Source: a bacterium (GTDB lineage: Bacteria > AUK180). Taken from it: DNA of 58,961 bases. The notes beneath the pieces were generated by a model that was given only the letters and a program-made list of their open reading frames with translations, had not been told where the DNA came from and did not search any database. Of the stretch, positions 17,366-58,961 are shown in pieces (the stretch's first letter is position 1; each line of letters starts with the position of its first letter). The DNA is taken from NCBI GenBank assembly GCA_023144005.1, contig JAGLGN010000010.1, positions 1-58,961 on the forward strand, read 5' to 3'. Made by a program: the position numbers and the translations under genes.

Positions 17366-20300
17366 TCATTTGATCAATGCGAATTTACAGGTCACCGTTT
17401 CTTCAGCTCCCTTGAAGACGATAAGATATACGCCTGATGCATAATCTTCCAGTTTGGATTTTGAAAGATCATAACGGTCCGTATAACCCCCGCTGCCCAA
17501 TTGCGGACTCTGTGTATCATCGAAGTCAACAAGTGAAATATCAAGTAGCTCACCGGAAACGGAGTATATCAAGATCTCTTCGACCACCCACTTTGTTTCA
17601 AAGGAAAGCGGCGCTGTAAGATCAGCGGCATAATAAGGATTAGGATAGACCACGACATCGCCGAGATCATCAGAAACAACCGATGCCTTTGAGGCAATTG
17701 CGTAAATACCCAGTGAATATACCTCGGCGCTGACATAACCGCCTATGCTATCCAACTCTACTTTTGATGTGAGCTCTTCCCAATCGCCCATCACTTCATT
17801 GTAATAAAGGAGTTTCAATGAGGAGGGTAACCGGTCTTTCAGCTCTTCATTCATAAAGTGTATCGAAACCACCGCATTTAGCATGGCATCGTCATTGCCG
17901 GCCGATGAGAATTTTCTGGATTCGCCAATATATTCATAATTTCGCATGATCTCTGGAATATGTATCGGTGACTCGATGGTAAGCGAGCTCAGATATCCGA
18001 CATCCGTGATCTCCATCGATGAGAGCGAATAATCCTGGACCCGGAGTCCGGATTTTGTGAATCCCTGAGTGATCTGATGATTGATCACATTCAGAGAATA
18101 AATGCCCCCAGAGTCACGGCTTGTATAGATAAACTGATCACCGCCCGCGGGAGCCCATTTCATGAAGCCTTCATTGTAAGGATTCGCCTCAAGAACGGAT
18201 CCATCGGATTGCGAACCGTCCACGGCTTCGTAATAGGCATCAAAGTTAGCGGAAGCGAATTCAGCATCCGGATCGGTCCAGAAATCAACATTTGAGAATA
18301 CATTGTTCTGATCGATCACATATGAGACCTGAGTACCGTCAACCGAAATACTCGGAGACCAGCATGGCTCGGAATACCCCGATATGAGCTCAACATCTGA
18401 ATTGGCCCAGGAAGATACGGTATTGACCGCAGCGATATAAGATTGAATATTATCGATCACATAGATATCACTGTTCGTTACACCCTCACCCGCATGCCTT
18501 CTTACAAAGGTGATCGCCGTATTGTCCGGAGCCCATTTCGGCTGCATTAATTTATCTGAGACAGCATATGTGTCGGTATAAGTTCCCGAGGTCAACTCGG
18601 TGAGTTTGACAAGGCTGACATCAGTATTTCTTATAGTTACAGGGTTACATACCCACAACTCACCGGAAATAGAACATAGCAACATTTCCGTCCCTGAGGC
18701 TTGGTTCGACCAGCTTCCCCAATGCGGATCACACCATCTACCCCAATTGCTGGTAAATTCCGAAGCCGGTTCCATAAGGACAGAAGGTTCGCCCCCTGTA
18801 GTTGAGATCCTCCTGATCTGAGTATATCCGCCGCCGTCCGCTGTAAAGGCGAAGTACACGCCATTGGTAGAAAATGTGAACTGACCGGCATGCGAAACAT
18901 TATCCGCATCCACTGTAACCTGCATTGCACCCGTTCCATCACGGTTCTGCTTCCATATATTGGATTTACCCGTCAATATATTGTAAACGATATAAGCGAC
19001 CTCGGTTCCGTCCTTTGACCACTCAGGGAACAAAATCGGATTATCCCCTTCAAGAAGAGGAGTAGGCGCTATAAAGGTCGTCAATTTATGTGAATCGGTA
19101 ACAGGATGGAAGTATGCGTCCTGCATCGCTCCGATGATCTCAATGGTGTACTCAACGCCCGGGGTGAGCGACGCACAGTCAAAATAACCGCTAGTGATAT
19201 CGCCGCTGAATGTCAAGGCCGTCAAACTCACCTCATTGGCGGGAGTGGCGGTTTCATAAAGGAGGTATTTCGCGACATCGTCGGCGGTCGCCATGTCAAC
19301 TTCATGTGTAAAGGAGAATTCGATCCGTATCAATGACGGTGCCGTAGCATAGTAGAAGCCGAATGGGAAATTTGAAGTTCCAGGCGTACCATAGGATGAA
19401 TCCGGCGGATTCCACTGTGTGGTCTCATTGCCCCATGAGCTTTGCTCATCGGAACAGGCCATGAGATCTTCCTTGGTTATGGAATAGCCCTGATCGAACC
19501 ATGCAGAAGTGTAGATCAGCATGTCGATAGTATCGCCGGTCGCGTCCTTCAGAATCACTTCATCTCCGGTATTACCCAAAGCGAAAGCACCCGGGCCGCC
19601 TGAGGCTCTATTATAAACGAAATCAACTTCTACATAATCATTCAAGATCAGATTATCCGTAGCACCCAGGACCAGATAGTCATAGGCGGGAACCGACGGA
19701 CACCCCGCGGGGATCGTATAAGTATCGATGCCGGTGTCAGATAAGCTCCATCCCACTATGGAGATAGGGCTGTCCGTAGGATTGTAAAGCTCTATCCACT
19801 CACCTTCTTCATTGGTGATCTCCGCACGCGGATATATCATGATCTCACTGATCATTACGGTGTCGCCTTTAGGCAGACACTCTTCCGGGATCGCGAACTT
19901 CTCATTCGAATATGGACTCTCAAATGGGTCCTTATCCGTATCGTAACTGGTCACCACATAATAATATGTGACTCCGTTAATAAGGCCGCTGTCAGAATAT
20001 TGAGAAACCACAGTGGTCGTCACCTCTGAATACGGGCCGCCTGACTCGGTAGAATTGTAGATGACATAATGATCTACATCGGCAACATCGGACCAGTCGA
20101 TAAAGACATAGTTATTCCCGCCCACACAAGTAATAAGAAGAGGGGTAATGGGGGGATTCGGCATGTAAACAGCGGCTTCGTCCGTGCCTTCTGTTTCCAG
20201 AACATTACAATTATAAGTAGCTATCATATAATAATTGGTATCGCCTTTAATGACTGAGTAATCATCGTATGCAAGTGTCTGAAGATCCGTTTCGATAAGC

Positions 20301-23300
20301 GTTGAAGCATCTATTGTGAAAGGTGTTTCCGTTGAACGGTACACCGAATAGAAGATCCGGTCAGGATTCTCCGCATCTATGGCAGCGTCCCAGCTAACCG
20401 AGATATGGGCCCCATTCTCGATTCCGGCAACATTTGAGATCCCGGACACCGCCCAATCGGGAGCTGTTACATCACTGTAATTACAAAGATCATTGCTTTC
20501 ATTCCAGGTGGTTTCCTGCTCGGTAAATCCGGCGGAAGCCCAATCATAACCGTTATTAGTGCCGCCTGTGCCGTTGGGAAGCCGCTGCGCGGTATTTCCC
20601 GCGGTAAATGTATGGCCGAAATCAGAGGCCTGATCGACCCTGATCCCCGATGCGTCATAAAGATAGACATTATCCCCTGAGATCACGACATCAGCCATGG
20701 GGGTTCCGGCATCTCTTGTAAATACAAGATAACTGTCAGCGGTAACCGTTCCGGAAAGAGTCCCTATACCTCCGACCGAATCATCGGCGTCGGTAAAGAG
20801 CCATCCGGTAACATCAATATCACCGCCGGTGGGGTTATAGAGTTCCAGAACATTTGTATCGGATCCCGCATCCTTCATATATTCGTTAATAACAACGGAA
20901 GTTCCAAGAGAAACCGCCGGAGCGTCATTGACACTGCCGAAAGTAGGTGTAATATCCCTGTTCCAATCATCCGCATCACTGCCTGTTGTAGCAATTCTTG
21001 CTGTTGAATAACCGGTATAAGCGATAGGAGCGCCGCCCTCAACACCGTATGCGACCTGATCGATCGTAGTCACGCCTATCGTCATCACAATGGTATTTCC
21101 GAGATTTGACAGCCCTATATTATCAGGGAAGAAGGTAAGGTATTCACCGGGTTCGATATACGATCTTCCGGTAACTACATCGACCTCGTCCACGCCTGTA
21201 TATGATTCAATATCCACGGAGCAGAGATTGAATGTGTCAATACCCGATGTATTGTAGAGCTCAATGCGCTCTGTGCCTTTGGCTGAGAACTCATTGATAA
21301 GTATATCACCAAACCCGGGATCAGAGAACTTGGAGGTAGGCGTACCGGATATCTCAACTGTATTTGTATCCTCATTGCCCCTGGAATCTTCAGCCCTCAC
21401 AACGAAATAATACTGAGTGCCGTTCTCCAGGCCGGTAACCAGATAACTCAGAGAAGAAGTTGAATATGAAAGAGATGAGAAGTTCTGACCGGCTGACGCG
21501 GTAGACATATACACATTGTAAACGATCGGCGTCGAAGTATCGGTCGCCGTATTCCATGCCAGCTCAAGTTCGCCGCCCAATTGCGTATCGGTCACGCTCT
21601 GTATCCCCGCGAAAACAGGAGGAGTAAGATCCGGTGGACCGGTGGTATCATTGTAAAGCTCCACAAACTCATATTCGTATGAGGAAGCGTCGGAATATTC
21701 ATTCACTATAACGCCGGCATTGGAAGAAGCGCCGACCCCGCTTCCCGGCGTCGCGGAAGTAGATGCGCTCATCGTCCAGCTCGTGGTGTCTCCCGCCGGA
21801 TCACCCGGATTTGTCCTTTCCACGGTATTATTGGAACTCAGGATCAGTGATGAAGGTCCATCCTGGGAAACATCACTATCATCCAGAAGTTCGAAATACT
21901 CATCTCCGTTGATAAGAGGCATTTGATCGGAAGAGTTCACATAGATCACATCTGAAGCGAGTGTCACTCCCCAGAAGGTCTCAAATGCTGACTTGTCCGC
22001 ATTTCTACCGACAACAAGGTATCCGCCTTCCGGTATGATAATACCATTGGGAATAGTGTATGTATTAGTAGAACTGTACTGAACGATCTTCCATCCCGAA
22101 ACATCTATATCATTCTGTGACGGGACATCAGGAACAGCGGAAAGCTGATTGGAGTTAGCGCTGACCGCGGGATATTTCTCCGCGTCATAATTGACAACGA
22201 CATAATAGTATGTAGTGCCATTGGTCAATCCGGTCTGTTCATAGGAATTAACGGTTGTGGAAGTGATAAGTGTATAAGGGCCGCCGTCAAATGTAGAATA
22301 GTAAACCCTGTACTCATCAGATCCGGTAACCGAAGACCAGGTCAATCCCACTAAGGTATCGCCGCCATTGGCAGTAAGTAATGTAGGCGACTGGGCAGGA
22401 TCGGTAGGAATACCGAAATCCTCATCTGAATTTGAAGTTTGAAGAGCGGCACAGTTATAGGCTTGAACGATATAATAATAAGTGGTACCGTTCGTCAGTC
22501 CAGTATCATTGTATGTCAATGTCGAAATATTTGTATCTATCAGCGTAGTCGCATCGACCGTAAATCCGGTTTCGGTGCTTCTATACAAGGCATACTTGAT
22601 ATAATCGCCATTCTCCGTATCCGTAGCGGCATCCCAGGTTATATCCAGTGTTCCACCGCTTTGAGCGTCGGTCACCGCGATATTAGAACCGGAAGCCCAT
22701 ACGGGAGCGGTTACATCGCCGGTATCGCATCCTGCGCCGCAATCCATCGTATGCGCACCCAAATATGAAACCGTATCTATGGCATAGGCATCCCATTCCC
22801 CTGCCGGATCGAAGGCATCACTGCCGTTTGCATCGCCGGCAGTAATAGAGCTCTTTCTCACCAATGTATGATTTACTGTGGTCGTCGGCTCAGTGCCCCA
22901 GAAACTTCCCGGATCGGTACCGATCTGTCCGATAACATCAACATAAGTCGATGTGCTTATCTTATAAAGCGCCATAGCATCATCGCCATTGAAACCGCAG
23001 GCATTATTTACAATACCGGCATACAGCGTTGCAGCTGAATTCATATAAACGATCGTCTGGCCGTCCGCTAAACTTCCTGATAAAGAGACATCGCTTGTAG
23101 GAGTGGATGCGCCGTTAGCAAAGAGCTGCAATTTGTACCCTGAAAGATCAATTGAATTCCCGGTACCATTATATACTTCAATGTACTTTTCACTGGCCGA
23201 GCCTTCAATGTACTCGGATATTATAAGATCAGTAGCGCAGCCGCCCACCGCTTCGGGGGTTATCGCGACCGCCTCATCGGAAGAGGTCATGGCAAGAGGA

Positions 23301-26300
23301 ACACAGTTTTTCGCGACGACCTTGTAATAATATGTACTTGCCGAAGAAAGCGTTGAATCCGTATAGAGGATCACTGAAAGATCCGACACTACCAGGGTAG
23401 CTGTTGCAGTATCTACGGGCGAAGTATCGCTTCTATAAAGGTCATAAGTGATATCCGCATTCTCAGCGTCCGTGGCTGCATCCCAGGACAGGTCTGCTGT
23501 AGTAGCTGTAGAATCGTCAACGGTGATATTGGAAACACCGCTGGATGCCCAATCCGGAGAAGTGGTATCCCCTGTATCGCATCCCGCAGCAACGATATCC
23601 GCTGCATTTCTGGGATTCAATCTATAGCGGTCGTATCCGTAAAGGACAATACCTGTGACCGAAGAATACTCATCACCGGATGACATTGAAACATTGTAGA
23701 AGGTATCGTCCACATCCAATTCATTGGTTCCCGATTGATCCTTGATCCTCCAATTTCCGTTCGCGTCCGTAGAAGAGCTCACAACAACATTGTAGAAGGT
23801 CATCAAGACACCCTCATAGGGCTCCTGTGAAGCAGAACATGTAACACCGGGCAAGGTGCCGCCGAAATTCTCCACAGTATCCGTGGCTGCGGCGTGAGGT
23901 GTATTCCCTGTCGTATTTACCGAATATGAGGTTACGGAAATTAATTCGGTTAAGCCGAAATACTCATCAACGGTTCCCGTAACGGTGATCGAATCACCAA
24001 TTGACGGACTATTTGTAGCATCGTATATAAGAACACCATACCATCCTCCGGCAGCCTCTTCGATAACATAATTACCGGTAGCCGATGCGGAGACAATACC
24101 GGAAAGTGTTACTACCTGGCCGTCGTAGGGAGAATCATAACATCCCGTGCCGACGCTGGCTGTATATTGAACATCATAAATGGTGACTGCACCCAGAGGA
24201 ACATCTGCCTGAACCTCGTCAGAAGCGGTCATCTCAAGAGGAACACAGTTCTTTGCGACAACCTTATAATAGTAAGTGGTGCCGGCAGAAACCGTATTGT
24301 CAGTATATGTGTCTGCTGTAGCGTTGGAAGAAACTAGAGTCGCCGTGGATGTATCCACAGGCGTGGTCTCGCTTCTGTAAAGGTCATATTTTACAGCTTC
24401 GGTGGTATTCTCCGAATCTGTGGCAACATCCCAGGCAAGAGCAACGCTGGATGTCGTGGAATTGGTAACAGCGATATTCGAGATACCGGATGATGCCCAA
24501 TCCGGGGGAGTGGTGTCCCCGGTATCACAAGTACTACTGCCGCCGGCGGCATCATAGTATATCTCGACAAATTCATTCGCAAATGCCTCCGCGTCCGAAT
24601 ATTCGTTGATAACAACGCCTGCGGAAGAGGGTGTACCGACACCGGAACCCGGTGTTGCATTAGTCCTTGCGGAAGCTGTCCAGGAACCTGCCAAGGTGCC
24701 GTCGTCGCCGGGATTGTTCCTCTCCGCGGTCTGGCCGCTCGTGAGTACAAGGCCGGTTATGCCGTCGATCAGGGTCGAGGTATCATCCTCTAATTTATAT
24801 GTTTCACCGCCATTGATCTGCGGGCATACATTTGCTGAATTCAGATATACCGCATTGGCAGGCAATGAAACTCCCCATGCGGTTTCAAATGCGGCCTGCG
24901 TGGCATCACGACCCACGATAAGGTATCCGCCCGCTTGGATCTTGGTGTCTGCAGGGAAGGTATAATTAGCGCCATTATCGATCTGAGTTATTTTCCAGCC
25001 GGAAACATCGATCTCCGGAGGAGTCCCTATAGTGATCTGGAAAGTATCGGTCTCTGAATAGGGTCCGTCCGCTGAAATATTCAAGGTAAAAGTAATAATA
25101 GTTCCCACGGGACATCCCGCGTCAACAGAAAATGCATATGCTGTTGAGCAAGTGGAAGTACCGCCGGAGGTAATATCGGGATAATTTGATGAGTTGCCGG
25201 TAATAGTAATGTAAGTGCTTCCCGTTGAAAGAGTGGCGGAAACATTCGTTGCCGTACTGGTACCGCTGTTTCCAAGGTCAACAGACATCGAAACCGACTC
25301 ACCGGGATCAGCAACACCGTCAGAATTACCCGATGAATCATCTATGACATTGGAAGAATAAGACAGGGCGACAGGATCTGAAAGGACCAGGCCCTGAATG
25401 AACTCGTCCCAATTATTCGACGGCGCGATCAAAGTGGAATCATAGTAGTCGTCATAATCCGAAGTGGAGTATGGATAATAGATACCTACGCCATAACAGT
25501 CATATCCCGTTTCCGCGAAATTATTGGTCACGGCGCTGTTAATAACGGATCTCACATTTACCGCTTCATCCTTGACCGATTGCGGGATCGCCGCAGCCTC
25601 AAGATTAAGGCATAGATTATAGAGGTCTATCTGATCATCATAAGGAATTGAAGAATCAAGCTCAAAAGTAGCTCCTCTTGCTGATAATATCTGGGCGGAA
25701 TATGAGTTCAATGCGTATCTCAGCTCGACCGCCAAATCATTTATAGCAGAGGTAAGTGTATCTGACCATGCCAGATCAACAGAGGACTGAGTATCTCCAT
25801 TAGATCCGCCTTCACCGTCAGCATAGGCATCGACAACAGCATTTGAAAGCTGAAGCGGAGTAAGATTCCCATTGGCTACAGCGAGGTCATTCAGGAAAAT
25901 GTCATACGACCATCCCTCAAGCCACTCGGACATCTCAGAGGCGACCATATAATCAAAATACGGGGCGGATTCCGCATTATTCTCCCACATCTGGTCAAGA
26001 CATACATCGTATCCGACTATGTCGAGTTTAGCTCCATAATAAGAGTAAATGTCACTGAATGCGGATCCCATTTCACCAAGAACGCCCGGGGTACCTGAAG
26101 TGAAGTAGATATAATCGCCGCTGGTATCATCGGAAGAAGCGCCCTTATATGAAGCGAGGTTATCAGAGACATTCCTCCAGCCGTCGCCATGATCCCAGAT
26201 CACGAGCATATAATGCTGCGCGGGATAATTATCATAAACCCACTCGGCAAAATCAACCAATGTCTGGCCGTCACCCATATTGGCTTCGCCTATATCGGAT

Positions 26301-29300
26301 ACGGCATTGGCGGCATCTGGGGTCATTCCATTAGTAATATAGAATCTCTTGGTACTTGTCCAGTCGCCATAAGCGGTGCTATACCCGGAGATCCTGTCCA
26401 TCTGGACAACAATATTTATATTCGCGTCAGAACCGACAGAAGACATTTCAAGGAAATCGTCCAGGCCGTCTGCCTCGAGATTATTATCGCAATTAAGAAA
26501 TACTGCGATCGTCCAATCCTTTCCTGAAAGAGTGGGAGTCCCGGAATCTTCGTCGGTATTAGTGGTCTGCAGGCCTGCGCAATTATACGCCTGCACGGTA
26601 TAAAAATACTCAAGGCCATTCGTTAATCCGGAATCATCATATGAAGTTGTGGTAAGCCCGGTATCGATCAAGGTGCCGGCACCGGGAGTAAAATCTGCTG
26701 TTAAAGAACGGTATATTGCGTACAAAACAGGATTTTCAGGATCGGTGGCTGTATTCCATGTGATCTGGAGAGCGCCGCCGGTACCCGGGTCGGTAACAGC
26801 TATCAGAGAATCGCCGCCGCCGAAAACAGGAGCGCTGACATCACCCATATCACAAGTGGCCGCAACTATGTCGGATGCATCTCTGGGATTCAGTCTGTAA
26901 CGGTCATATTCGTAAAGTATGACACCGGTAACCGAATCAAGCTGCTCGCCGAGTGTCATGGAAGCGGAATAAAATCTATCGTCAACATCCAATTCATTGG
27001 TGCCCGATTGGTCTTTAATTCTCCAGCGGCCGCTGGCATCAGTCGAAGAGCTGACCTCTACATCATAGAAAGTCACCAAAACACCTTCATAGGTCTCCTG
27101 GGTCGCACCGCAGGAAATACCCGGAAGTGCGCCGCCATACGCCTCAACGGTCAATGTCGAAGCGCTATCTACTGTATTACCCGTAGAATTGACCGTATAA
27201 GAAGTGATCGTTGTCATTTCGGTCAGGCCGAAATATTCATCCACTGTACCGGTAATGGTAACCGAATCTCCCCTCGTGGGAGTATTTACTGAATCATATA
27301 CCAGGACACCGTGCCATGATCCGGAAGCTTCTTCAAGTATATATCTACTGGTCCCTGTTGCGGAAACAATACCCGAAATGGTCACGACTTGTCCAAGATA
27401 TGCGGAATCATAACATTCTGTGCCGATGCTGGCGGTGTATTGCACATCATAGATCGTAAGAGACGAGGGAGTCGGCACCGTTACGCCGATCTCATCCGTT
27501 GCTGTCTTTTCAAGCGGCACACAATTCTTCGCAACTACCTTGTAATAATAGGTGGTGCCTGAAGAAACCGTATTGTCGGTATATGTGAGCGCTGTACCGT
27601 CGGAAGAAACAAGCGTAGCTGTGGATGTATCCACAGGTGAGCTCTCGCTTCTGTAAAGGTCATATTTTATCGCTTCTGTCGTATTCTCTGAATCTGCGGC
27701 AATATCCCAGGCAAGAGCAACGCTGGATGTAGTGGAATTGGTAACAGCGATATTTGATATGCCGGATGATGCCCAATCGGGCGGCGTGGTGTCCCCTGTA
27801 TCACAGGAGCCGCTGCCGCCGGAGGAGTCATAATAAAGCTCGATAAATGCGAGAGTGTAACTGGCGGCCTGATCAGCATACTCATTTATCACAAGGCCCG
27901 CGTCCGATGCGGTTCCAGCTCCTGCACCCGGTGTCGGAGAAGCGTCAATACTTGTCCAGCTGCCGATCAGAGAAGCATCGTCACCGGGATTATTCCTTGT
28001 AACAGTAAAGGGATCCGCGCCGAAATTATTATAAGTGGTCTCGATACTGGCTGCACCATCGGTCAATTCATAATATTCGTCGCCGTTGATAACGGGGAAT
28101 CCGTTGCCGCCGATAACGTCAAATCCGTTAAAATAAATCGTGCCGGCGGGCAAAGACCCGTATTCCGCCTCGAACTCGGCTTGAGTTGCCTGACGGGCAA
28201 TAACAACATATCCGCCCGGATCAATAGAGGTGGATGCTGGAAATGTAAATGTCGCGTCTGCGGCATACTGTATGATCTGATAACCGGAAATATCAAGAGG
28301 CGTCCCGCTGCCGCCGGAAGCGGTAGGGGTCGCGGATAATTCATTTGAGTAATTACTTAGAGCAGGCAATTTTGCCGTATCATAATTCTTCACCGTATAA
28401 TAATAGGTCGTTCCGTTGACCAATCCGGTATGCGTATATGTGGTCAAGGTCGTGGTATCAATATAAGTATAGGGTTCGCCTGTGGTCGTTGAATAATACA
28501 CTCTATACTCATCGGAGCCGGTTACGGCAGACCAGGAAAGGGCAACTTCACCGTCGGACGCATTGGCACTTGACAAGGTTGGCGCTGATGCCGGATCGGT
28601 AGGTATGCCGATTCCCTCATCGGTATTTGTGGATTGAACAGGGACGCAATTGTATGTCTGAACCGTATAGTAATAAGTCGTGCCTAAGGTAAGTCCGGTG
28701 TCAGTATATGAGGTTGAGGCGCCTGTATTGATAAGCGTTCCCGCACCGGGGGTAAAATTCGGAGTAAGGGATCTGTATAAAGCATATTCCACACTGGCTG
28801 GATTCTCAGAATCATTCGCAAGATTCCAGGATACCTGAAGAACGGTGCCGTTTTCCTGATCCGCCACCGATATTCCTGAAGTTCCTCCGGAAAATACCGG
28901 AGCAGTAGTATCACCGCTATTGCATGAACCGCCTGCGGGAGCGTCATAATAAAGCTCAATATAAGCAAGTGTATAGCTGCTGCCTTGATCGGCATACTCG
29001 TTTATCACAAGACCCGCATCCGATGTGGTTCCCACTCCGGCGCCCGGGGTCGGCGCGGCGTCAATGCTTGTCCAGCTGCCGATCAGAGAGGCATCATCAC
29101 CGGGATTGTTCCTTGAAACAGTAAAGGGATCCGCGCCGAAATTATTATAAGTGGTCTCGATACTGGCTGCGCCATCGGTCAATTCATAATATTCATCACC
29201 GTTGATGACAGGGAAGCCGTTACCGCCGATAACATCGAATCCGTTAAAATACATCGTGCCGGCGGGTAATGCTCCATACTCGGTCTCAAACTCCGCCAAG

Positions 29301-30634
29301 GTAGCCTGACGTGCGATAACAACATATCCGCCCGGATCAATTGAGGTAGAAGCCGGAAATGTAAATGTCGCATCTGCCGTATACTGTATGATCTGATAAC
29401 CTGAAATATCCAGGGGGCTGGAGCCGCCGCTTGCGGTGGGAACTCCATAGGCCTCGTCGGAAACATTATTCAATGTGGAAAGAGGAACACAATTTACAGC
29501 GGCAACACGATAATAATATGTTGTATCGTTGGTCAAGCCCGTATCGGTATAAAGTGATTCCGATAATGAAGAAACTATGAGATTGCCCGCGCCGGGTGTA
29601 AAGCCCGAAGTGGCGTCCCTGTATAAAGTGTAAGTGAAGTTGGGATTTTCCGTATCAACCGCATCATCCCAATCCAGGCCATTCACCGTATTGCCGGGAG
29701 TAATAGTAAGATTTGAAATGCCGCTGGCAGCCCAATCCGGGGCCGTAATATCCGTGCCGTCACAGGAGCTTTCCAGAAGCCATTCCATACCGTTCATAAA
29801 GGCGACACGGTCATCGGCTTCATTCCAGCCATCGTATAAGGTGTCTCCCGAATATCCTGTCCCGTCATCGGCAGGTGATGAATCGCCCACCGCGCAGACG
29901 CGGCCCGATCCGTATTCCGCAGATGCGAACATGGCATATGTGCCGCCTACGGAGTCCCTCCAGATATGTCCTTTCGCTGTGGCGTTGTTTCCCGTATTGA
30001 GAGTAACCGCTGTGCCGCCGTGGAAGGCGAAAGAAGAGACATCGCCGTATGATCCGTGAACTATCGGATCACCCGCGTCCGAAGCTACGTAACTCGAAGT
30101 ATAGGTAAAATCATCATATGTTTCGTCCACCTGGAAATGAAGTCCGAAATAGGTCTCTGTACCGAAATCGTTCCATATCTCAGGGGAATCCCAACCATTG
30201 CTGTTTCGATCGGAGATCCAATGGTCAGCGACCATGAAAAGACCGCCGCCTGCATTTACAAATGCCAGGATAGCGTCTCTTTCCGATGTTGTGAATTGAT
30301 TCTGCGGCTCGCAGACCACAAAGACATCATAATTAGAAAGGTCATAGGCATTTGATCCGTCACCATATGTTATGCCATAGGATGATGTTAATGTATGACA
30401 TGTATGCCCCGCCTCATATGATTCAAAGCCCCATGCGGATATTGCGCCGTCCCAATCATCTTCCGCGGCGGGATCCGAAGGACTCGGGACAGGATAATTC
30501 GTATCGATCACCCAATCAGCATTACCTGCCCGCTGATCCTTAGTATAATCAAAAAGTATGTTTGCAGAAAATCCATTCACGCCGATGCCAAGGAGCAGCA
30601 CGGCCAACACGAAAACCAGAGATAATTTCTTCAT
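17366..30634 (-). CDS. Giant secreted multidomain protein with clostripain-type (C11) protease
   Basis: 4422 aa. Residue positions are approximate. 1-24: signal peptide. 25-290: ThuA/GATase-like domain. Then FN3-like modules (…DWASSGISNI…Y.LYRS…TYYY.V.A.NC.) alternate with about eight lamin-tail-like modules (INEY…E.VELYY). 1061-1261 and 2148-2348: two copies of an OB-fold-like (DUF5689-type) domain. 1371-1755: peptidase C11, with catalytic His in VIWDHGDGW (~1480) and Cys in GYDVCLDQ (~1542). 3861-4195: TolB/WD40-like propeller. 4330-4422: C-terminal domain starting VVYPNPYY, resembling T9SS-type sorting domains. Start: GGAG 5 nt before ATG. Probably an exported surface protein for adhesion and proteolysis; sorting route is inference. 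Confidence 0.88.
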   Translation of the reverse strand: MKKLSLVFVLAVLLLGIGVNGFSANILFDYTKDQRAGNADWVIDTNYPVPSPSDPAAEDDWDGAISAWGFESYEAGHTCHTLTSSYGITYGDGSNAYDLSNYDVFVVCEPQNQFTTSERDAILAFVNAGGGLFMVADHWISDRNSNGWDSPEIWNDFGTETYFGLHFQVDETYDDFTYTSSYVASDAGDPIVHGSYGDVSSFAFHGGTAVTLNTGNNATAKGHIWRDSVGGTYAMFASAEYGSGRVCAVGDSSPADDGTGYSGDTLYDGWNEADDRVAFMNGMEWLLESSCDGTDITAPDWAASGISNLTITPGNTVNGLDWDDAVDTENPNFTYTLYRDATSGFTPGAGNLIVSSLSESLYTDTGLTNDTTYYYRVAAVNCVPLSTLNNVSDEAYGVPTASGGSSPLDISGYQIIQYTADATFTFPASTSIDPGGYVVIARQATLAEFETEYGALPAGTMYFNGFDVIGGNGFPVINGDEYYELTDGAASIETTYNNFGADPFTVSRNNPGDDASLIGSWTSIDAAPTPGAGVGTTSDAGLVINEYADQGSSYTLAYIELYYDAPAGGSCNSGDTTAPVFSGGTSGISVADQENGTVLQVSWNLANDSENPASVEYALYRSLTPNFTPGAGTLINTGASTSYTDTGLTLGTTYYYTVQTYNCVPVQSTNTDEGIGIPTDPASAPTLSSANASDGEVALSWSAVTGSDEYRVYYSTTTGEPYTYIDTTTLTTYTHTGLVNGTTYYYTVKNYDTAKLPALSNYSNELSATPTASGGSGTPLDISGYQIIQYAADATFTFPASTSIDPGGYVVIARQATQAEFEAEYGSLPAGTIYFNGFDVIGGNGFPVINGDEYYELTDGAASIETTYNNFGADPFTVTRNNPGDDASLIGSWTSIDASPTPGAGAGTASDAGLVINEYADQAASYTLAFIELYYDSSGGSGSCDTGDTTPPDWASSGISNIAVTNSTTSSVALAWDIAADSENTTEAIKYDLYRSESSPVDTSTATLVSSDGTALTYTDNTVSSGTTYYYKVVAKNCVPLEKTATDEIGVTVPTPSSLTIYDVQYTASIGTECYDSAYLGQVVTISGIVSATGTSRYILEEASGSWHGVLVYDSVNTPTRGDSVTITGTVDEYFGLTEMTTITSYTVNSTGNTVDSASTLTVEAYGGALPGISCGATQETYEGVLVTFYDVEVSSSTDASGRWRIKDQSGTNELDVDDRFYSASMTLGEQLDSVTGVILYEYDRYRLNPRDASDIVAATCDMGDVSAPVFGGGDSLIAVTDPGTGGALQITWNTATDPENPVLYAIYRSLTADFTPGAGTLIDTGLTTTSYDDSGLTNGLEYFYTVQAYNCAGLQTTNTDEDSGTPTLSGKDWTIAVFLNCDNNLEADGLDDFLEMSSVGSDANINIVVQMDRISGYSTAYGDWTSTKRFYITNGMTPDAANAVSDIGEANMGDGQTLVDFAEWVYDNYPAQHYMLVIWDHGDGWRNVSDNLASYKGASSDDTSGDYIYFTSGTPGVLGEMGSAFSDIYSYYGAKLDIVGYDVCLDQMWENNAESAPYFDYMVASEMSEWLEGWSYDIFLNDLAVANGNLTPLQLSNAVVDAYADGEGGSNGDTQSSVDLAWSDTLTSAINDLAVELRYALNSYSAQILSARGATFELDSSIPYDDQIDLYNLCLNLEAAAIPQSVKDEAVNVRSVINSAVTNNFAETGYDCYGVGIYYPYSTSDYDDYYDSTLIAPSNNWDEFIQGLVLSDPVALSYSSNVIDDSSGNSDGVADPGESVSMSVDLGNSGTSTATNVSATLSTGSTYITITGNSSNYPDITSGGTSTCSTAYAFSVDAGCPVGTIITFTLNISADGPYSETDTFQITIGTPPEIDVSGWKITQIDNGANYTFPADTKIQAGGYLIVGRDATQAAFETAWGVSLPANAVYLNSANVCPQINGGETYKLEDDTSTLIDGITGLVLTSGQTAERNNPGDDGTLAGSWTASARTNATPGSGVGTPSSAGVVINEYSDAEAFANEFVEIYYDAAGGSSTCDTGDTTPPDWASSGISNIAVTNSTTSSVALAWDVATDSENTTEAVKYDLYRSETTPVDTSTATLVSSNATADTYTDNTVSAGTTYYYKVVAKNCVPLEMTASDEVQADVPLGAVTIYDVQYTASVGTGCYDSPYDGQVVTLSGIVSASATGNYVIEEAAGGWYGVLIYDATNSPSIGDSITVTGTVDEYFGLTELISVTSYSVNTTGNTPHAAATDTVENFGGTLPGVTCSASQEPYEGVLMTFYNVVVSSSTDANGNWRIKDQSGTNELDVDDTFYNVSMSSGDEYSSVTGIVLYGYDRYRLNPRNAADIVAAGCDTGDTTSPDWASSGVSNITVDDSTATTADLSWDAATDAENADITYDLYRSDTSPVDTATATLVVSDLSVILYTDSTLSSASTYYYKVVAKNCVPLAMTSSDEAVAITPEAVGGCATDLIISEYIEGSASEKYIEVYNGTGNSIDLSGYKLQLFANGASTPTSDVSLSGSLADGQTIVYMNSAATLYAGIVNNACGFNGDDAMALYKISTSTYVDVIGQIGTDPGSFWGTEPTTTVNHTLVRKSSITAGDANGSDAFDPAGEWDAYAIDTVSYLGAHTMDCGAGCDTGDVTAPVWASGSNIAVTDAQSGGTLDITWDAATDTENGDYIKYALYRSTETGFTVDATTLIDTNISTLTYNDTGLTNGTTYYYIVQAYNCAALQTSNSDEDFGIPTDPAQSPTLLTANGGDTLVGLTWSSVTGSDEYRVYYSTFDGGPYTLITSTTVNSYEQTGLTNGTTYYYVVVNYDAEKYPAVSANSNQLSAVPDVPSQNDIDVSGWKIVQYSSTNTYTIPNGIIIPEGGYLVVGRNADKSAFETFWGVTLASDVIYVNSSDQMPLINGDEYFELLDDSDVSQDGPSSLILSSNNTVERTNPGDPAGDTTSWTMSASTSATPGSGVGASSNAGVIVNEYSDASSYEYEFVELYNDTTGPPDLTPPVFAGIQSVTDTQLGGELELAWNTATDTSTPIVYNVYMSTASAGQNFSSLSYSTSSLSYLVTGLENGTQYYFVVRAEDSRGNEDTNTVEISGTPTSKFSDPGFGDILINEFSAKGTERIELYNTSGIDTFNLCSVDIESYTGVDEVDVVTGRSYIEPGEYLTFFPDNIGLSNLGNTIVMTIGVTTIDQVAYGVEGGAPIAYTGYSTARIATTGSDADDWNRDITPTFGSVNDAPAVSLGTSVVINEYMKDAGSDTNVLELYNPTGGDIDVTGWLFTDADDSVGGIGTLSGTVTADSYLVFTRDAGTPMADVVISGDNVYLYDASGIRVDQASDFGHTFTAGNTAQRLPNGTGGTNNGYDWASAGFTEQETTWNESNDLCNYSDVTAPDWAVSGISNVAGIENGAHISVSWDAAIDAENPDRIFYSVYRSTETPFTIDASTLIETDLQTLAYDDYSVIKGDTNYYMIATYNCNVLETEGTDEAAVYMPNPPITPLLITCVGGNNYVFIDWSDVADVDHYVIYNSTESGGPYSEVTTTVVSQYSDSGLINGVTYYYVVTSYDTDKDPFESPYSNEKFAIPEECLPKGDTVMISEIMIYPRAEITNEEGEWIELYNPTDSPISIVGWSLSDTGIDTYTIPAGCPSVPAYDYLVLGATDNLILNDYVEVDFVYNRASGGPGAFALGNTGDEVILKDATGDTIDMLIYTSAWFDQGYSITKEDLMACSDEQSSWGNETTQWNPPDSSYGTPGTSNFPFGFYYATAPSLIRIEFSFTHEVDMATADDVAKYLLYETATPANEVSLTALTFSGDITSGYFDCASLTPGVEYTIEIIGAMQDAYFHPVTDSHKLTTFIAPTPLLEGDNPILFPEWSKDGTEVAYIVYNILTGKSNIWKQNRDGTGAMQVTVDADNVSHAGQFTFSTNGVYFAFTADGGGYTQIRRISTTGGEPSVLMEPASEFTSNWGRWCDPHWGSWSNQASGTEMLLCSISGELWVCNPVTIRNTDVSLVKLTELTSGTYTDTYAVSDKLMQPKWAPDNTAITFVRRHAGEGVTNSDIYVIDNIQSYIAAVNTVSSWANSDVELISGYSEPCWSPSISVDGTQVSYVIDQNNVFSNVDFWTDPDAEFASANFDAYYEAVDGSQSDGSVLEANPYNEGFMKWAPAGGDQFIYTSRDSGGIYSLNVINHQITQGFTKSGLRVQDYSLSSMEITDVGYLSSLTIESPIHIPEIMRNYEYIGESRKFSSAGNDDAMLNAVVSIHFMNEELKDRLPSSLKLLYYNEVMGDWEELTSKVELDSIGGYVSAEVYSLGIYAIASKASVVSDDLGDVVVYPNPYYAADLTAPLSFETKWVVEEILIYSVSGELLDISLVDFDDTQSPQLGSGGYTDRYDLSKSKLEDYASGVYLIVFKGAEETVTCKFALIK

Positions 30635-52476: not shown

Positions 52477-53904
52477 ATGAAGGAAAAAAAAAGAGAGAGA
52501 TTTAACTTTTATTTGAGAGCCCTCAAAGGACTATCTAATATATATATAAATGTTGGCCAATACAATGACTCTATGAAAATAGAGAAGCAGATTGAGAGTA
52601 CTAATATTGATGAATTGGAGAAGTATCATACATGGATACAGCAAGCTCTGATCTATGAACTCACTTCCAGGTTTGATGAAGCAAAAGAAATACTGACGCA
52701 AATAATTACTGATACTCCGCATTCCCTAGTTGCCGTCAAGGCTTTGGGGAAGTTATGTTGGATCAATAGACTGCAGGGAGATTTCAATACAGCCGCAACA
52801 TATGGAGATCAGGGTATCGCTATTGTTGCAAACCTGAGGGAGGCTGATTCAGACTCAGAAGACCTGCTTAAGACAGAAGCATCGTTATTGAGCAGCATAG
52901 CGGCAATATATTGGAATAAAGGGGAATTTCAAAATGCAATAGATTTTTACAGTAGAGCAATTTATCTTCATAAAAAAACAACTGATATTAACTTCCTTGG
53001 CACTCTATATTCAAATATCGGGGCCGTATATTTGCATATGGGGAATTCTGATAAAGCCGAATCTCTATTTATCAAGCAGATGAAGTTTTCTCAAAAAACA
53101 GGCAATAAACTTGGGATGGCTATGGCAGCGAATAATCTTGGTGTCGTATATATTCAGAAAAATGATCTGGATAAAGCTGTTACTCTAAACAGAAAGGCGC
53201 TGAAATTGGCTTATGAATTGGGGGATAAATTCGGAATAGAGAGCGTATCGATAAATTTGGGAAGTATATACCTTATACAGGCGTGCTATGATAGAGCCGA
53301 GAAAATGTTTTTTGATGCATTAGCAATATCCGAGAAAATAAATGATAAACCTACGCAGGCATCATGCTATATGTATATAGGGGAGTTCTATTTGGAAACT
53401 GATGTAATGAACAAAGCAAGGAAATATTTAAGGAAGGCGTGGAGCGACTTAAGCTCATTAGGTGATCGAACATACCTTTGCGTCACAGCCGGTTTATTGG
53501 CGGAATACGGAATAAAAAAACTATCTAGAGGAAAGACTAATCGTAAAAAGAACATTGATGAGATAAAGGAGTTCATTGAGAAAAAGCGCCGATATGCATC
53601 CGAGATAGGTGCTGAGCATGAAAATAATCATGCTGACCTTCTGGAGGCAATGCTTTGGGGAAAAACAAAAACTCGGTCAGTAAAGGAAATAAGAGAACGA
53701 TTTGAAGAATGCAGTTATAAGTATAAAAAAATGAACATGCTGACAGAGCTTGGAAAAGCTTACTATAATTATTGTGAATTTTTGTTTTTGTCGGGTGAAT
53801 CAGCAATGGGCATATATAAAATGTGTGAAAGGGTTCTAAAAAAAGGAAAAAACATTCATTATTTGAGTAAATTGGAACGCAGCGAAGAGAAGCACAAGGC
53901 GTAG
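52477..53904 (+). CDS. Tetratricopeptide-repeat protein
   Basis: 475 aa composed of helical TPR units (e.g. SSIAAIYWNKGEFQNAIDFYSRAI, SNIGAVYLHMGNSDKAESLF, NNLGVVYIQKNDLDKAVTLNRKAL). No signal peptide, membrane segment or catalytic domain. The sequence resembles the C-terminal TPR part of larger signalling proteins (kinase/ATPase-TPR), so it may be a detached fragment; no matching N-terminal part lies upstream. No Shine-Dalgarno precedes the ATG. It is AT-rich relative to its neighbours. Its location between two copies of a promoter repeat and next to the export cassette leaves open a regulatory or scaffold role. Confidence 0.78.
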   Translation: MKEKKRERFNFYLRALKGLSNIYINVGQYNDSMKIEKQIESTNIDELEKYHTWIQQALIYELTSRFDEAKEILTQIITDTPHSLVAVKALGKLCWINRLQGDFNTAATYGDQGIAIVANLREADSDSEDLLKTEASLLSSIAAIYWNKGEFQNAIDFYSRAIYLHKKTTDINFLGTLYSNIGAVYLHMGNSDKAESLFIKQMKFSQKTGNKLGMAMAANNLGVVYIQKNDLDKAVTLNRKALKLAYELGDKFGIESVSINLGSIYLIQACYDRAEKMFFDALAISEKINDKPTQASCYMYIGEFYLETDVMNKARKYLRKAWSDLSSLGDRTYLCVTAGLLAEYGIKKLSRGKTNRKKNIDEIKEFIEKKRRYASEIGAEHENNHADLLEAMLWGKTKTRSVKEIRERFEECSYKYKKMNMLTELGKAYYNYCEFLFLSGESAMGIYKMCERVLKKGKNIHYLSKLERSEEKHKA

Positions 53905-54722: not shown

Positions 54723-56453
54723 GTGAAGAAGTACGGACAGCTATGGCGTTTTTCCAAACTCATTCGTCCCTATTGGGGCAATATAGTCCAGTCGATAGTT
54801 CTTGGAATAATAATCACCATACTCTCTCTTCCGATCCCATGGTTCACAAAGATCCTTATTGACACGGTTTATCCTGAAAGCAATGTAGATCTCCTGTATT
54901 TCATTCTGCTTACACTGCTTTTATTTTCTGTTGTGCAGGCACTTTTTAATTTCCTCAGAAATTATTTTATGTATAGCCTAGGCCTTAAGATGTGGACAGA
55001 GCTTCAATTCAAGTTCTTTAAACACCTTTTAAAGCTTTCCTTCAATTTTTTCGATTCAAGGAAAGTTGGAGAGGTCATGTCGAGATTTCAGGACGCGGGA
55101 GAATCTCTCTACCGGATCATGGACATAATTAACCGTGTCATCATGAGTACACTTTCGATAATAATTTTCCCTGTGATTATCTTTTTAATAAACTGGAAGC
55201 TCGCACTTATCGCAATCTGCCTGATACCCGTGGATGCACTGGTCTTCTTCTATACCAATAAATACATACATAAATTTTCTAAAAAGGCAGTAGAAGCGGG
55301 GGCAGAGCTTTCCGCAAAGAATTTCGAAACGCTTTCAGGCATCCGGACGGTTCAATCGCTGAAGATAGAGAAGCAGATAACCGGCAAGATAAAAAGCCTC
55401 TATTCCGAAATGCTTAATGCGCGCTTAAAGACAGGTCTTTTACAAAACGGCTCCCAGATGGCTCTCGGAGTAATAAGGGCGGTCACGCGCTTTTTATACA
55501 TGTGGTTCGGCTGGGTCCAGATACTCAACGGCGATCTGACCCTTGGGAAATACCTCGCTTTCACCATGTTCATCGGCTACCTTTATGATCCTTTGAGACA
55601 GCTCGTTACCCTCAGTCAGGACATTCAGATAACCCTTATCCACACCGGAAGGTTCTTTGAGTTCTATGACATTAAACCGAAGATACATGATACCTCTGAG
55701 GCAAAAGAGCTGCCGGAGAATATCAAAGGCGATATCGTATTCAAAGATGTGAATTTTTCCTATGAAAAGGGGCAAGCAATTTTGAAAAATATTAATATGA
55801 ATATCCCGCAAGGCAATACCGTAGCGCTCGTGGGAAAGAGCGGGGTCGGCAAATCTACTATCGCATGCCTTATTCAGAGATTTTACGATCCTGACTCAGG
55901 AAGCATACATATAGATGAGTATGATATAAAAAAAGTAAAGGTGGAATCTCTCCGAAGTAAGATGGGGACGGTGATGCAGGATCCGTTTCTGTTCTACGGG
56001 ACGATCCTTGATAATATCACGCTTGAAAGAGGGGCGATCGATATGCAAAGAGTGAAGAAGGCCGCCGAAATGGCGTATGCCGATACCTTTATTGAGGCAT
56101 TCCCCAAAGGTTACGATACGATCATCGGAGAGAGAGGACTCCGTCTTTCACAGGGACAAAAACAGAGGATAACCATTGCCCGGATCCTCTATGTTAATCC
56201 TTCGATCCTGATCATTGACGAGGGGACATCATCACTTGACCTTGAATCCGAACAGTATATCCAAAGTGCTTTAAAGAAGATCAGGAAGGGCCGTACGACC
56301 GTAGTTATAGCGCATCGCCTTTCTACGATCAAAGATGCGGATATTATATTCGTGATAGACGAAGGGACGATCAAGGAAAAAGGTACTCATGAAGAGCTCA
56401 TGGCGGATTCCGTGGTTTATAGAAACCTCTACGACCGTCTGACGGTGATATAA
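54723..56453 (+). CDS. ABC exporter, fused membrane and ATPase domains
   Basis: 576 aa from GTG 54723 (TAAGGAGGAG just upstream). Six membrane helices (~20-310), then an ATPase with Walker A GKSGVGKST (~378-386), signature LSQGQ in place of LSGGQ, Walker B ILIIDEG and H-loop AHRLST. No N-terminal C39 peptidase, so it cannot itself cleave a double-glycine leader. The helix-rich first half is of the type-IV (MsbA/lipid or peptide) exporter class. First gene of a four-gene operon with a HlyD-like protein, an AhpD-like protein and a metallopeptidase; a peptide substrate is inferred from context. Confidence 0.93.
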   Translation: MKKYGQLWRFSKLIRPYWGNIVQSIVLGIIITILSLPIPWFTKILIDTVYPESNVDLLYFILLTLLLFSVVQALFNFLRNYFMYSLGLKMWTELQFKFFKHLLKLSFNFFDSRKVGEVMSRFQDAGESLYRIMDIINRVIMSTLSIIIFPVIIFLINWKLALIAICLIPVDALVFFYTNKYIHKFSKKAVEAGAELSAKNFETLSGIRTVQSLKIEKQITGKIKSLYSEMLNARLKTGLLQNGSQMALGVIRAVTRFLYMWFGWVQILNGDLTLGKYLAFTMFIGYLYDPLRQLVTLSQDIQITLIHTGRFFEFYDIKPKIHDTSEAKELPENIKGDIVFKDVNFSYEKGQAILKNINMNIPQGNTVALVGKSGVGKSTIACLIQRFYDPDSGSIHIDEYDIKKVKVESLRSKMGTVMQDPFLFYGTILDNITLERGAIDMQRVKKAAEMAYADTFIEAFPKGYDTIIGERGLRLSQGQKQRITIARILYVNPSILIIDEGTSSLDLESEQYIQSALKKIRKGRTTVVIAHRLSTIKDADIIFVIDEGTIKEKGTHEELMADSVVYRNLYDRLTVI

Positions 56454-57137
56454 ATGGAAAGTAAAAAATACTTCGATATAACGAAAAAACTTGTTGTTTA
56501 TGTTCTCTGGTTATTCATCTTACTTCTGATATCGTTATTTGTTCTGACAAATATTTTTGAAGGAAGTGAGACCATTACCGTATCCGGAAATCTGTATCCG
56601 TCAAAGATGCAGTATATCAAAGATAAGGATGCGGCAGTAATAATAAAAGACGGGGAGAGGGTCATAAAGGGACAATCTCTAATTGCTGCTTCAGAGATAA
56701 AGTCCACGGACAAGATCATAATCGCTGAAATCAACGGAGAAGTCCACATCAGAGAGGCACTCGGGAAGGTTCGTGAGATCTTCATTTATGACCCTGATTC
56801 TTGGGAAGCAGAAGTATTTATTCCCGAAAACCAGCTGAACAGGATCAACACCGATTTGCAGACCATCGTTTTGATAAACGCGCTTTCGCATATGGACCAC
56901 GGCACAATTGACGGGAGATTGGCGAAGATAGGAAGGGTACCGATGCGCGGGGACATGCTGCCGGCGATATTTTACAATTCTACCGTTTCACTCTCCGGAG
57001 ATGCCCTGACAAAAATGATCGACAATAGAAGATTGTTCCCGGGCATGAGCGTTAAGTGCCGTATCGTTTTGAAAAGGGACAAGGTTTTTAAACTCTTTTA
57101 TGATAAGATGGTGAAAAAGGTGTTCTATGAAAATTGA
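56454..57137 (+). CDS. HlyD-like membrane-anchored accessory protein
   Basis: 227 aa starting 1 nt after the ABC stop. One N-terminal membrane segment (~11-33) is followed by an extracytoplasmic beta-rich region with short half-lipoyl-like motifs (KDGERVIKGQSLI, AEINGEVHIREALG) and a beta-barrel-like stretch (WEAEVFIPENQLNRI...) ending in FPGMSVKCRIVL, a common close in membrane-fusion proteins. It lacks the long alpha hairpin of full HlyD proteins. Most likely it couples the exporter to the periplasm or wall. The sequence match is weak; the call leans on architecture and position. Confidence 0.65.
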   Translation: MESKKYFDITKKLVVYVLWLFILLLISLFVLTNIFEGSETITVSGNLYPSKMQYIKDKDAAVIIKDGERVIKGQSLIAASEIKSTDKIIIAEINGEVHIREALGKVREIFIYDPDSWEAEVFIPENQLNRINTDLQTIVLINALSHMDHGTIDGRLAKIGRVPMRGDMLPAIFYNSTVSLSGDALTKMIDNRRLFPGMSVKCRIVLKRDKVFKLFYDKMVKKVFYEN

Positions 57138-57495
57138 TGATAGTATCCGTGAGAAAAAAAGGAAAGAACTGGCGGAAAAGTTCATAAGCGAGGTATCTGA
57201 GGTAAGTCCGGCGTTTTCGAAACATTTCAGCTGCTTCTGGAAGGACAAGAGATGTGGTGGAGCCATGCAGGATAAAGATAGAGAGCTCCTCATGCTTCTG
57301 GCTGGGCTCGTGGACAATTGCGAACCCTGCGTGAGATTTCACATGGCAAATGCGATGAAGCAGGGAGCTGCTGAAGCCGAGATCTTCGAGACCATTTCCG
57401 TAGCGGTGGTCATGTGTTCCGACCCCAATATCCATGAACACGTAAAATATTGTCTGAGTATTTATGAAAAATTTAAAAAGAATCTCATTAAATAA
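57127..57495 (+). CDS. AhpD-like (carboxymuconolactone decarboxylase family) CxxC protein
   Basis: 122 aa. The AhpD/CMD signature is present: CEPCVRFH, with C65, C68 and H72 (family pattern CxxC...H). This supports thiol-disulfide or peroxidase-type chemistry. Four other cysteines (C36, C43, C97, C109) are unusual for so small a member. It overlaps the HlyD-like gene by 11 nt and the peptidase by 32 nt. Next to a cysteine-rich peptide gene it could form, reduce or protect disulfides; this is inference. Confidence 0.85.
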   Translation: MKIDDSIREKKRKELAEKFISEVSEVSPAFSKHFSCFWKDKRCGGAMQDKDRELLMLLAGLVDNCEPCVRFHMANAMKQGAAEAEIFETISVAVVMCSDPNIHEHVKYCLSIYEKFKKNLIK

Positions 57496-58684
57496 CGACC
57501 TTCAATTATTGATATCTGCATATGGAGAGTTCCTGCGTGAATACGGCATTTTCCACCGCACTATGCTCGAATTCCCAAACACATTCGGCTACAATGAGAT
57601 CAAAAAAAGTATCGATAAGAATCTATCTGAGCTACGGCGATATTCACCCGATAGTAATCTTGAAAAACTTCTTCTACATCAGATGGAATTCGCTTATGGC
57701 GTATTTGAATGTTTTTCCGATTACTATTTCATGTTTCCTGAAAAACCAATCGACGAGCTGTTGAAAAAGATCTTCGGCAATTCAATACTTGATGATGCGG
57801 AAGAGATGATAAGGCACCTGGATTACAGGAAGATCTGGGATTATTACAAATTAGAGGACCGGTACTCGCATCAGCGGATCACCCTTTACAATAATGAACT
57901 GGACGAGAAGATCAGAAAAGTATTCGATCATATTAAAAGGAGCGCGGTCCAGTGGGGCGTGGAAAGGGATATTATTCCTGAAGGCCTTCAGATCGAGATC
58001 GAGCTGAGCTCTTTCGGCAACGGTTCAAATTACGATCCTGAAACTAAACGGATTGAGATAGACAGGAATTATTTTCTTGTTTTTTCCGATGGAGCTGAAA
58101 AGAAGATAAATCCCCTTCTCGTAATTCCTACTGTGTTTCATGAATTTTTCGGCCATGCATTGAACGGCGTATATTCTGAGCAATTACCGCTTCCTTTTCA
58201 GGCTGATTGGAACGCCGACCCTCAAATATTCAACAAATCAGTATCCGAGGGCATTGCCGGCATAGCTGCCGAATGGTCGCTTGAACTAATCGAAGAACGC
58301 AAGGATGAATTCAATATCAACGATCAGGATATCACCTATCTGAAAGAACTGCTTAAGATAAATCCGATCATGAGCATGATCAGCGGATATTTCGGGTATT
58401 TGAGATTTAAAGGAGCCGAGGATCCTGATTTCAACCCTACGGAAAAATTGATTGAGATATCAAATAACCGAGGTTTCGCGTACAATATGTCCCAGCAGCG
58501 AATTCCGGATATGCAGAAACTCATTTATCAAATATCTTCTTATCGCGGTAAATCCCTCGTGAGAAGCGTCTATAATGACCTCATAGCTCAAGGCAAAGAC
58601 GTGGCAACCGCCGACAAGGCAATTCTTTCTGCTAATTCCGGCCTTCACATCTATAAAGAACTTGTAGGATCGATCACTTCCTGA
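57464..58684 (+). CDS. HExxxH metallopeptidase, DUF1704/MATCAP-like
   Basis: 406 aa, no signal peptide or membrane segment. The active-site helix reads VFHEFFGHALNG: H226, E227 and H231 give HExxxH, one residue longer than HExxH. About 31 residues on, SVSEGIAGIAAEW (E262) matches in position and pattern the QEGLA motif that supplies the third ligand in DUF1704 ('QEGLA motif') proteins and in the related MATCAP tubulin carboxypeptidases. The intervening NG..S.QLPLPF also resembles that family's NG..QPL. An M3-type oligopeptidase with an inserted residue is the alternative. A peptide-trimming role in the export cassette is inferred. Confidence 0.78.
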   Translation: MKNLKRISLNNDLQLLISAYGEFLREYGIFHRTMLEFPNTFGYNEIKKSIDKNLSELRRYSPDSNLEKLLLHQMEFAYGVFECFSDYYFMFPEKPIDELLKKIFGNSILDDAEEMIRHLDYRKIWDYYKLEDRYSHQRITLYNNELDEKIRKVFDHIKRSAVQWGVERDIIPEGLQIEIELSSFGNGSNYDPETKRIEIDRNYFLVFSDGAEKKINPLLVIPTVFHEFFGHALNGVYSEQLPLPFQADWNADPQIFNKSVSEGIAGIAAEWSLELIEERKDEFNINDQDITYLKELLKINPIMSMISGYFGYLRFKGAEDPDFNPTEKLIEISNNRGFAYNMSQQRIPDMQKLIYQISSYRGKSLVRSVYNDLIAQGKDVATADKAILSANSGLHIYKELVGSITS

Positions 58685-58732: not shown

Positions 58733-58767
58733 AAAAAAAAAGGGGGACCGGAAAACCGATCCCCCTT
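58733..58767 (-). terminator. Intrinsic terminator of the Cys-rich peptide gene
   Basis: Minus-strand RNA: GGGGGAUCGG-UUUU-CCGGUCCCCC, a fully paired stem with one U-G pair, followed by a run of nine U. Read on the plus strand the same position is a C-A mismatch and the tail is TTAAAATTTT, so it is better suited to the minus-strand gene, though it may serve the peptidase operon too. Confidence 0.88.
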
Positions 58768-58794: not shown

Positions 58795-58961
58795 TTAGAG
58801 ATGTAAGAATTTGCTACGGCAACCGTACCAAGGACATGTTCCATTTCCTGAACCGCCCTGATCACCATTGTCGCCACAGAAGTTAGGATCTTCTGAGCAA
58901 AGTGCGCAAAGTGTAACTACAGCGTCATCAGCTTTCTTTCTTTCGGGTGTTGTGATAAATT
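58795..58961 (-). CDS. Small Cys/Gly-rich peptide, C-terminal part only (start outside window)
   Basis: The open frame from 58959 to the TAA at 58795-58797 gives 54 residues; the N-terminus lies beyond the window. A charged stretch (PERKKADDAVV) is followed by TLCALCSEDPNFCGD, a Gly/Asn-rich linker (NGDQGGSGNG) and TCPWYGCRSKFLHL. It has five Cys (two as CxxC), one Trp and seven Gly. This leader-plus-cysteine-core look is typical of secreted or ribosomally synthesised modified peptides. Its own strong terminator argues it is a real gene. It converges on the exporter-AhpD-peptidase operon, whose substrate it may be. No family recognised. Confidence 0.72.
   Translation of the reverse strand, partial: FITTPERKKADDAVVTLCALCSEDPNFCGDNGDQGGSGNGTCPWYGCRSKFLHL

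Follow-up and report, generated by a model that had tools for sequence, protein, structure and literature searches.

The stretch of DNA analyzed here, referred to below as the window, is a complete contig of 58,961 nucleotides (contig C2 of genome G000), and it raises a question at its very end: does the short reading frame that runs off the contig encode a peptide, and if so, what is made of that peptide? The frame lies on the minus strand at 58795..58961, with its codons at 58795-58959 and its 5' end open, which agrees with the preliminary description, where it had been proposed as a partial gene without a start. It reads FITTPERKKADDAVVTLCALCSEDPNFCGDNGDQGGSGNGTCPWYGCRSKFLHL up to its stop codon and holds five cysteines, the stretch LCALCSEDPNFC, a Gly-, Asn-, and Asp-rich linker, and the segment TCPWYGC. 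Composition-matched random 165-mers contain 0.36 open frames each when all six frames are counted, and 0.004 open frames with at least five cysteines, whereas the repeat motif described below occurred in 0/20,000 of them. Since an open frame of such length is not rare by chance, proof of a gene was sought in homology and selection. The sole other genome of the genus (G001) carries a complete orthologue, MKFITTPERKKADGDMVTLCALCSEDPNFCGDNGDGNNAGGNGNGACPWYGCRSKFLHIKPCPQYI, which begins MKFITTP; its ATG lies two codons upstream of the point at which the window ends (the limit set beforehand was about 60), follows AGGAGGATAAA, and is served by the ribosome-binding site AGGAGG, and by this comparison the missing 5' end is Met-Lys. 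No stop or frameshift interrupts the orthologue. Over 54 codons, the two genomes differ by 19.8 synonymous versus 12.2 nonsynonymous changes, giving a dN/dS of 0.11, which equals the value for the neighboring putative peptidase gene in the same comparison, and the frame of the edge gene is the only one of six without internal stops in both genomes. On the strength of this homology and selection, the edge frame is a real gene under purifying selection. That the contig merely ends in an open frame arisen by chance, as the frequency of random frames of this length might suggest, is ruled out by the homology and the dN/dS; with the start, ribosome-binding site, promoter, and terminator conserved as well, and homologues present in two phyla, this reading has a negligible probability.

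The edge gene does not stand alone. Contig C3 of the same genome opens inside a second precursor gene and carries a third (L018 3-152 and 173-382, both minus); two adjacent copies occur in G001, three tandem copies in G005, and a single copy in G006. The edge peptide is thus the last of a tandem set of precursors of a ribosomally synthesized, modified peptide (RiPP), with at least three paralogues in G000 and two in G001. The paralogues are near-identical in DNA across 40 to 90 bases, which is probably why the assembly breaks at the end of the window. The sequence probably continues in contig C3, to judge from synteny combined with homology, the join being suggested from one side by the gene order of G001 and from the other by that of the exporter genes. 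In G001, the exporter operon also ends near a contig edge (L132) and its intergenic DNA is different, so that precursors and exporter are at most presumed neighbors there; in G006, precursor and exporter operon share a single contig (L020). The set and its cluster are accordingly split over two contigs and extend beyond what can be seen from the window, and the case illustrates how tandem precursor genes can go unnoticed at the ends of contigs, since assemblies break at repeats.

All full-length precursors begin MK[FY]I-x-TP, and in the edge gene this leader-like N-terminal part corresponds to FITTPERKKADDAVVTL (58907..58959, minus), its boundary with the core being placed by inference from alignments. 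The core repeat follows at 58867..58911 (minus) as T-x-C-x-x-C-S-E-D-P-x-F-C-G, here TLCALCSEDPNFCGD. Across ten precursors from five genomes and two phyla, the repeat takes the general form T-x-C-x-x-C-x-E-D-x-x-x-C, and 13/13 copies retain its Thr, three Cys, Glu, and Asp without exception. A second cysteine segment, TCPWYGCRSK (58810..58839, minus), is confined to the last precursor in G000 and in G001. The count of five cysteines noted earlier is right for the edge copy and does not carry over to its paralogues, which have 4 to 9, whereas the suggestion of a leader-core peptide is borne out by the tandem paralogues, the conserved N-terminus, the variable core, and the adjoining maturase genes, one for a RiPP maturase of the radical SAM/SPASM type and one for an ATP-grasp ligase of the graspetide type. 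Transcription signals frame the set, with a consensus promoter in front and one terminator behind. The promoter ahead of the first precursor of G001 matches 12/12 consensus positions with a 17-nt spacer, occurs also in G000, and has a similar counterpart in the Holophagales locus discussed below, and a second promoter (11/12 consensus positions) faces the maturase genes. The terminator claimed behind the frame is present as a 12-pair stem with one G-U pair and a T-run (58740..58767, read 58767-58740 on the minus strand), which begins 27 nt after the stop codon, folds at -23.2 kcal/mol (z -3.9), and is conserved in G001 (L017 14117-14142).

Divergent from the precursors in G000 (C3) and G001 (C102) run three genes encoding, in this order, a degenerate ATP-grasp protein, a radical SAM (rSAM)/SPASM protein, and an ATP-grasp ligase. 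The rSAM protein has the full set of cluster cysteines and contains the SPASM pattern CX3CX2C, CX9-15GX4C - CX2CX5CX3C - C, which in A2 appears as CNFRCEYC, C329-X13-G-X4-C348, C389-X2-C-X5-C-X3-C402, and C416. It reaches the curated cut-off of none of the known families compared: its best NCBIfam matches are TIGR04334 with 361.5 bits (cut-off 600) and TIGR04463 with 320.5 bits (cut-off 525), the PapB profile gives 149 bits (cut-off 340), and its best solved relative is 5wgg, the SCIFF maturase CteB. A single TGA flagged in the rSAM gene of G006 turned out to be no more than the stop that ends an intact frame of 450 residues. The profile of the ligase best matches 7drm (6.1e-37), with glutamate ligases, 5ig9, and 7mgv next, and 7drm, 5ig9, and 7mgv are the graspetide ligases PsnB, MdnC, and CdnC, respectively; the match to RimK is far weaker (8e-10). 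The metal-binding E-x-N is conserved in all copies as LLEANSSPMF or LLECNSSPMF. The first of the three proteins is distantly paralogous to the ligase (hhalign 96%, 1.5e-9; HMM match 6e-6), a kinship that rests on profile comparison because the predicted fold is of low confidence (pLDDT 46), and it is probably not an active ligase, since its metal-binding motif reads QMT, DII, or RVN. In the Holophagales locus (L047, 8320-8430), the N-terminal part of the ligase lies in a different frame from the rest, perhaps through a sequencing error or a frameshift in the metagenome-assembled genome.

The cluster belongs to Candidatus Mcinerneyibacteriota, an uncultured phylum (the G005 contig is L033), in which precursor, rSAM enzyme, ATP-grasp ligase, and HlyD-like protein occur together in the same 4/7 genomes and are absent from the same 3. 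Outside the phylum, a partial set is found in one Holophagales genome (UBA2201, L047), in the order precursor, degenerate ATP-grasp, rSAM, ligase, ABC; homologues of the AhpD-like, HlyD-like, and peptidase proteins were not found at that locus with the profiles used. The ligase occurs in no further genome among 396 Acidobacteriota, and the precursor in 0/379 other bacterial genomes. This distribution bears on whether the peptide might be nothing more than a small Cys-rich protein, secreted or structural, that stays unmodified and lies beside RiPP genes by accident, as would accord with its being matched by no precursor family profile. Within the phylum the co-occurrence is perfect, the genes also adjoin one another in a second phylum (Holophagales, L047), and the leader type is shared with the neighbors of other rSAM enzymes, all of which makes that very improbable. 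A short precursor gene with a conserved N-terminal part adjoins a gene for a peptide-modifying enzyme, as in RiPP systems generally, and the peptide is almost certainly a precursor. A different suggestion is that the cysteines bind metal, the product being an exported metallophore or a metallothionein-like peptide with any modifications secondary. Two CxxC-containing segments per peptide and 4-9 Cys would suit this, but Cys metal binding leaves unexplained why Glu, Asp, and Thr are as invariant as Cys, the rSAM and ligase neighbors are always present, and no metal-regulation gene was seen adjoining the cluster, so that we consider it rather improbable.

When 45 rSAM relatives are placed in a tree, the five enzymes with an ATP-grasp partner form a single clade (support 99/97), and the other members adjoin short precursors that start MK[FYW][IV]..P, without such a ligase. 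The leader therefore goes with the rSAM enzyme, and the ligase was added to it. Caldisericota loci with rSAM relatives (L043-L048, 5474-6583) have precursors of 104-111 residues that start MKWIVNPMDEF and contain about 14-16 Cys, with two copies in one genome, and no family is named for them; behind a Zixibacteria rSAM gene lie two short Pro/Cys precursors (L034 8331-8432 and 8576-8701; MRYIVKP..., ending FFPILPP), and similar ones ending PILPP occur at L037 and L038. As the family evidently works without a ligase where the MK[FYW]I..P leader type has no ATP-grasp neighbor, it is conceivable that only the rSAM enzyme modifies the repeat and that the ligase, labeled RimK-like by Pfam, acts otherwise, for example by adding amino acids to a carboxylate as RimK does. 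The invariant Thr, however, suits an ester donor, and the ligase profile is far nearer to 7drm, matching 5ig9 and 7mgv too, than to RimK; we regard this alternative as unlikely, though worth keeping in sight. Modification by both the rSAM enzyme and the ligase, argued by analogy with their relatives, is the likely course.

On the plus strand, convergent with the edge gene, the window carries an exporter operon that is also found in G001, G005, and G006, and whose genes look operon-like in that their frames overlap or abut. It comprises an ABC transporter permease/ATPase of the MsbA/HlyB-like exporter type without a peptidase domain (54723..56453), a short HlyD-like membrane-fusion protein (56454..57137; a weak profile match, with a full-length HlyD-like partner in G006), an AhpD/carboxymuconolactone-decarboxylase-like protein with C-x-x-C-x-x-x-H (57127..57495), which overlaps both neighbors, and a putative zinc metallopeptidase (57464..58684) with the motifs HE[FY]FGH ... 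SEGIA. The last is present in 3 of the 4 cluster-bearing Mcinerneyibacteriota genomes, and its motifs are invariant in 3 genomes. Its putative peptidase function is read from motif and genome place: the protein has no profile match and no significant fold match in the PDB, its predicted fold is weak (pLDDT 58), and the top PDB rows include zincin peptidases at E values of at least 0.6, to which we give no weight. A MATCAP/DUF1704-like enzyme, suspected from HExxxH and SEGIA, was set aside for want of a supporting Pfam match. Just upstream of the operon, a TPR protein (52477-53904, plus) matches to its repeats only; TPR proteins of similar kind accompany some other RiPP systems. Farther away in the window, a 4422-residue gene (17366-30634, minus) encodes what is probably a giant protein, either secreted or on the cell surface; in it, a clostripain-type (C11) peptidase domain is joined by six or more lamin-tail domains and by fibronectin type III domains. 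Beyond the start of the exporter operon of G001 lies a lipoprotein-like protein of 292 residues whose C-terminus is rich in Cys (L132 5089-5967, plus).

Taken as a whole, the locus is a RiPP cluster of an uncultured phylum whose products are probably heavily cross-linked peptides, and the best explanation, which we hold to be quite likely, is that tandem precursors are cross-linked by both enzymes and then exported. The maturases would bind the short N-terminal MK[FY]I-x-TP leader; the rSAM enzyme would join one or more cysteines of the repeat to an acidic side chain in a ranthipeptide-like thioether; and the ATP-grasp ligase would join the invariant Thr to the other acid in a graspetide-like ester, with one Thr and two acids per repeat leaving one acid for each enzyme. 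A Cys-to-Asp/Glu thioether in the repeat is possible by analogy with PapB, an rSAM relative that links Cys to Asp or Glu and accepts Cys-Xn-Asp with n = 0-6 (PMC9413430); the spacings that the repeat makes available are CX2D, CX1E, and CX5D. The AhpD-like protein might assist in pairing the remaining cysteines; cleavage of the product may fall to the putative peptidase, and the product would leave through the ABC-HlyD exporter, our best guess being a secreted peptide for extracellular competition or signaling. A more daring proposal, which we put forward tentatively and think somewhat more apt to fail than to hold, is that the two unrelated enzymes cross-link the T-x-C-x-x-C-x-E-D-x-x-x-C repeat so that their rings interleave, the ligase forming a Thr-Glu (or Asp) ester and the rSAM enzyme a Cys-Asp (or Glu) thioether, with the degenerate ATP-grasp protein as an obligate partner subunit. 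If the proposed chemistry is right, each repeat would be a compact bicyclic scaffold whose thioether and ester rings share six invariant side chains; a precursor would hold several such units, and the scaffold would be readily testable in E. coli.

How, then, does the cluster relate to known RiPP systems? It resembles the Clo7bot (maturase TIGR04334, peptide TIGR04333) and TIGR04463 systems in that its rSAM/SPASM maturase belongs to their superfamily (361 and 320 bits) and its short tandem Cys-rich precursors start MK[FYW]-[IV]-x-x-P and have no separate long leader. It differs in that the rSAM enzyme falls under both cut-offs, the cluster has in addition a graspetide-type ligase with a degenerate paralogue, the core repeat is TxCxxCxEDxxxC, and the precursors match no known precursor family profile above its cut-off (best 9.6 bits, against TIGR04333 with a cut-off of 31). 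With the ranthipeptides (PapB/freyrasin, CteB/SCIFF) it shares an rSAM/SPASM enzyme and closely spaced Cys and Asp/Glu, but it has no CX3D pattern, scores well below the PapB cut-off, and brings two types of modifying enzyme. The graspetides (plesiocin/PsnB, microviridin/MdnC, chryseoviridin/CdnC) are alike in the profile of their ligase and in a repeated core with an invariant Thr, an acidic pair, and Thr-X6-Glu spacing, which is also the outer ring spacing of the plesiocin motif TTxxxxEE; a graspetide synthetase-type ligase with E-x-N is present, and a Thr donor and Glu/Asp acceptors occur in 13/13 repeats. The points of difference are one Thr and three Cys per repeat, the rSAM partner, the degenerate second ATP-grasp protein, and a locus found in 1 of 396 Acidobacteriota. 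Grasp-with-spasm systems (TIGR04192) likewise pair an ATP-grasp ligase with a SPASM enzyme and conserve Cys and Thr/acid in their precursors, but the ligase here scores 26.9 bits against a cut-off of 230, no precursor profile matches, and those systems occur mainly in Bacteroides with an rSAM enzyme of another family. Membership in the Clo7bot, TIGR04463, PapB, and grasp-with-spasm families is thus rejected on scores below the cut-offs. No description of such a system was found in the literature on Clo7bot and on graspetide-ranthipeptide hybrids, and neither Mcinerneyibacteriota nor the core repeat was found in the RiPP papers and family profiles consulted. The pairing of ATP-grasp with SPASM as such is not new, being known from other families (branch 5 in PMC8939145 and group 14 in PMC13097080); the parts are known, namely a Clo7bot/TIGR04463-like rSAM enzyme and a graspetide-like ligase, and none of the families searched matches their combination or the core repeat. 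Graspetide synthetases join Ser, Thr, or Lys to Asp or Glu, and the first account of partner-dependent graspetide synthesis, which involves an unrelated partner, dates from 2026 (PMC13097080); the pair of an intact ATP-grasp protein and one that lacks the metal site would offer a second case.
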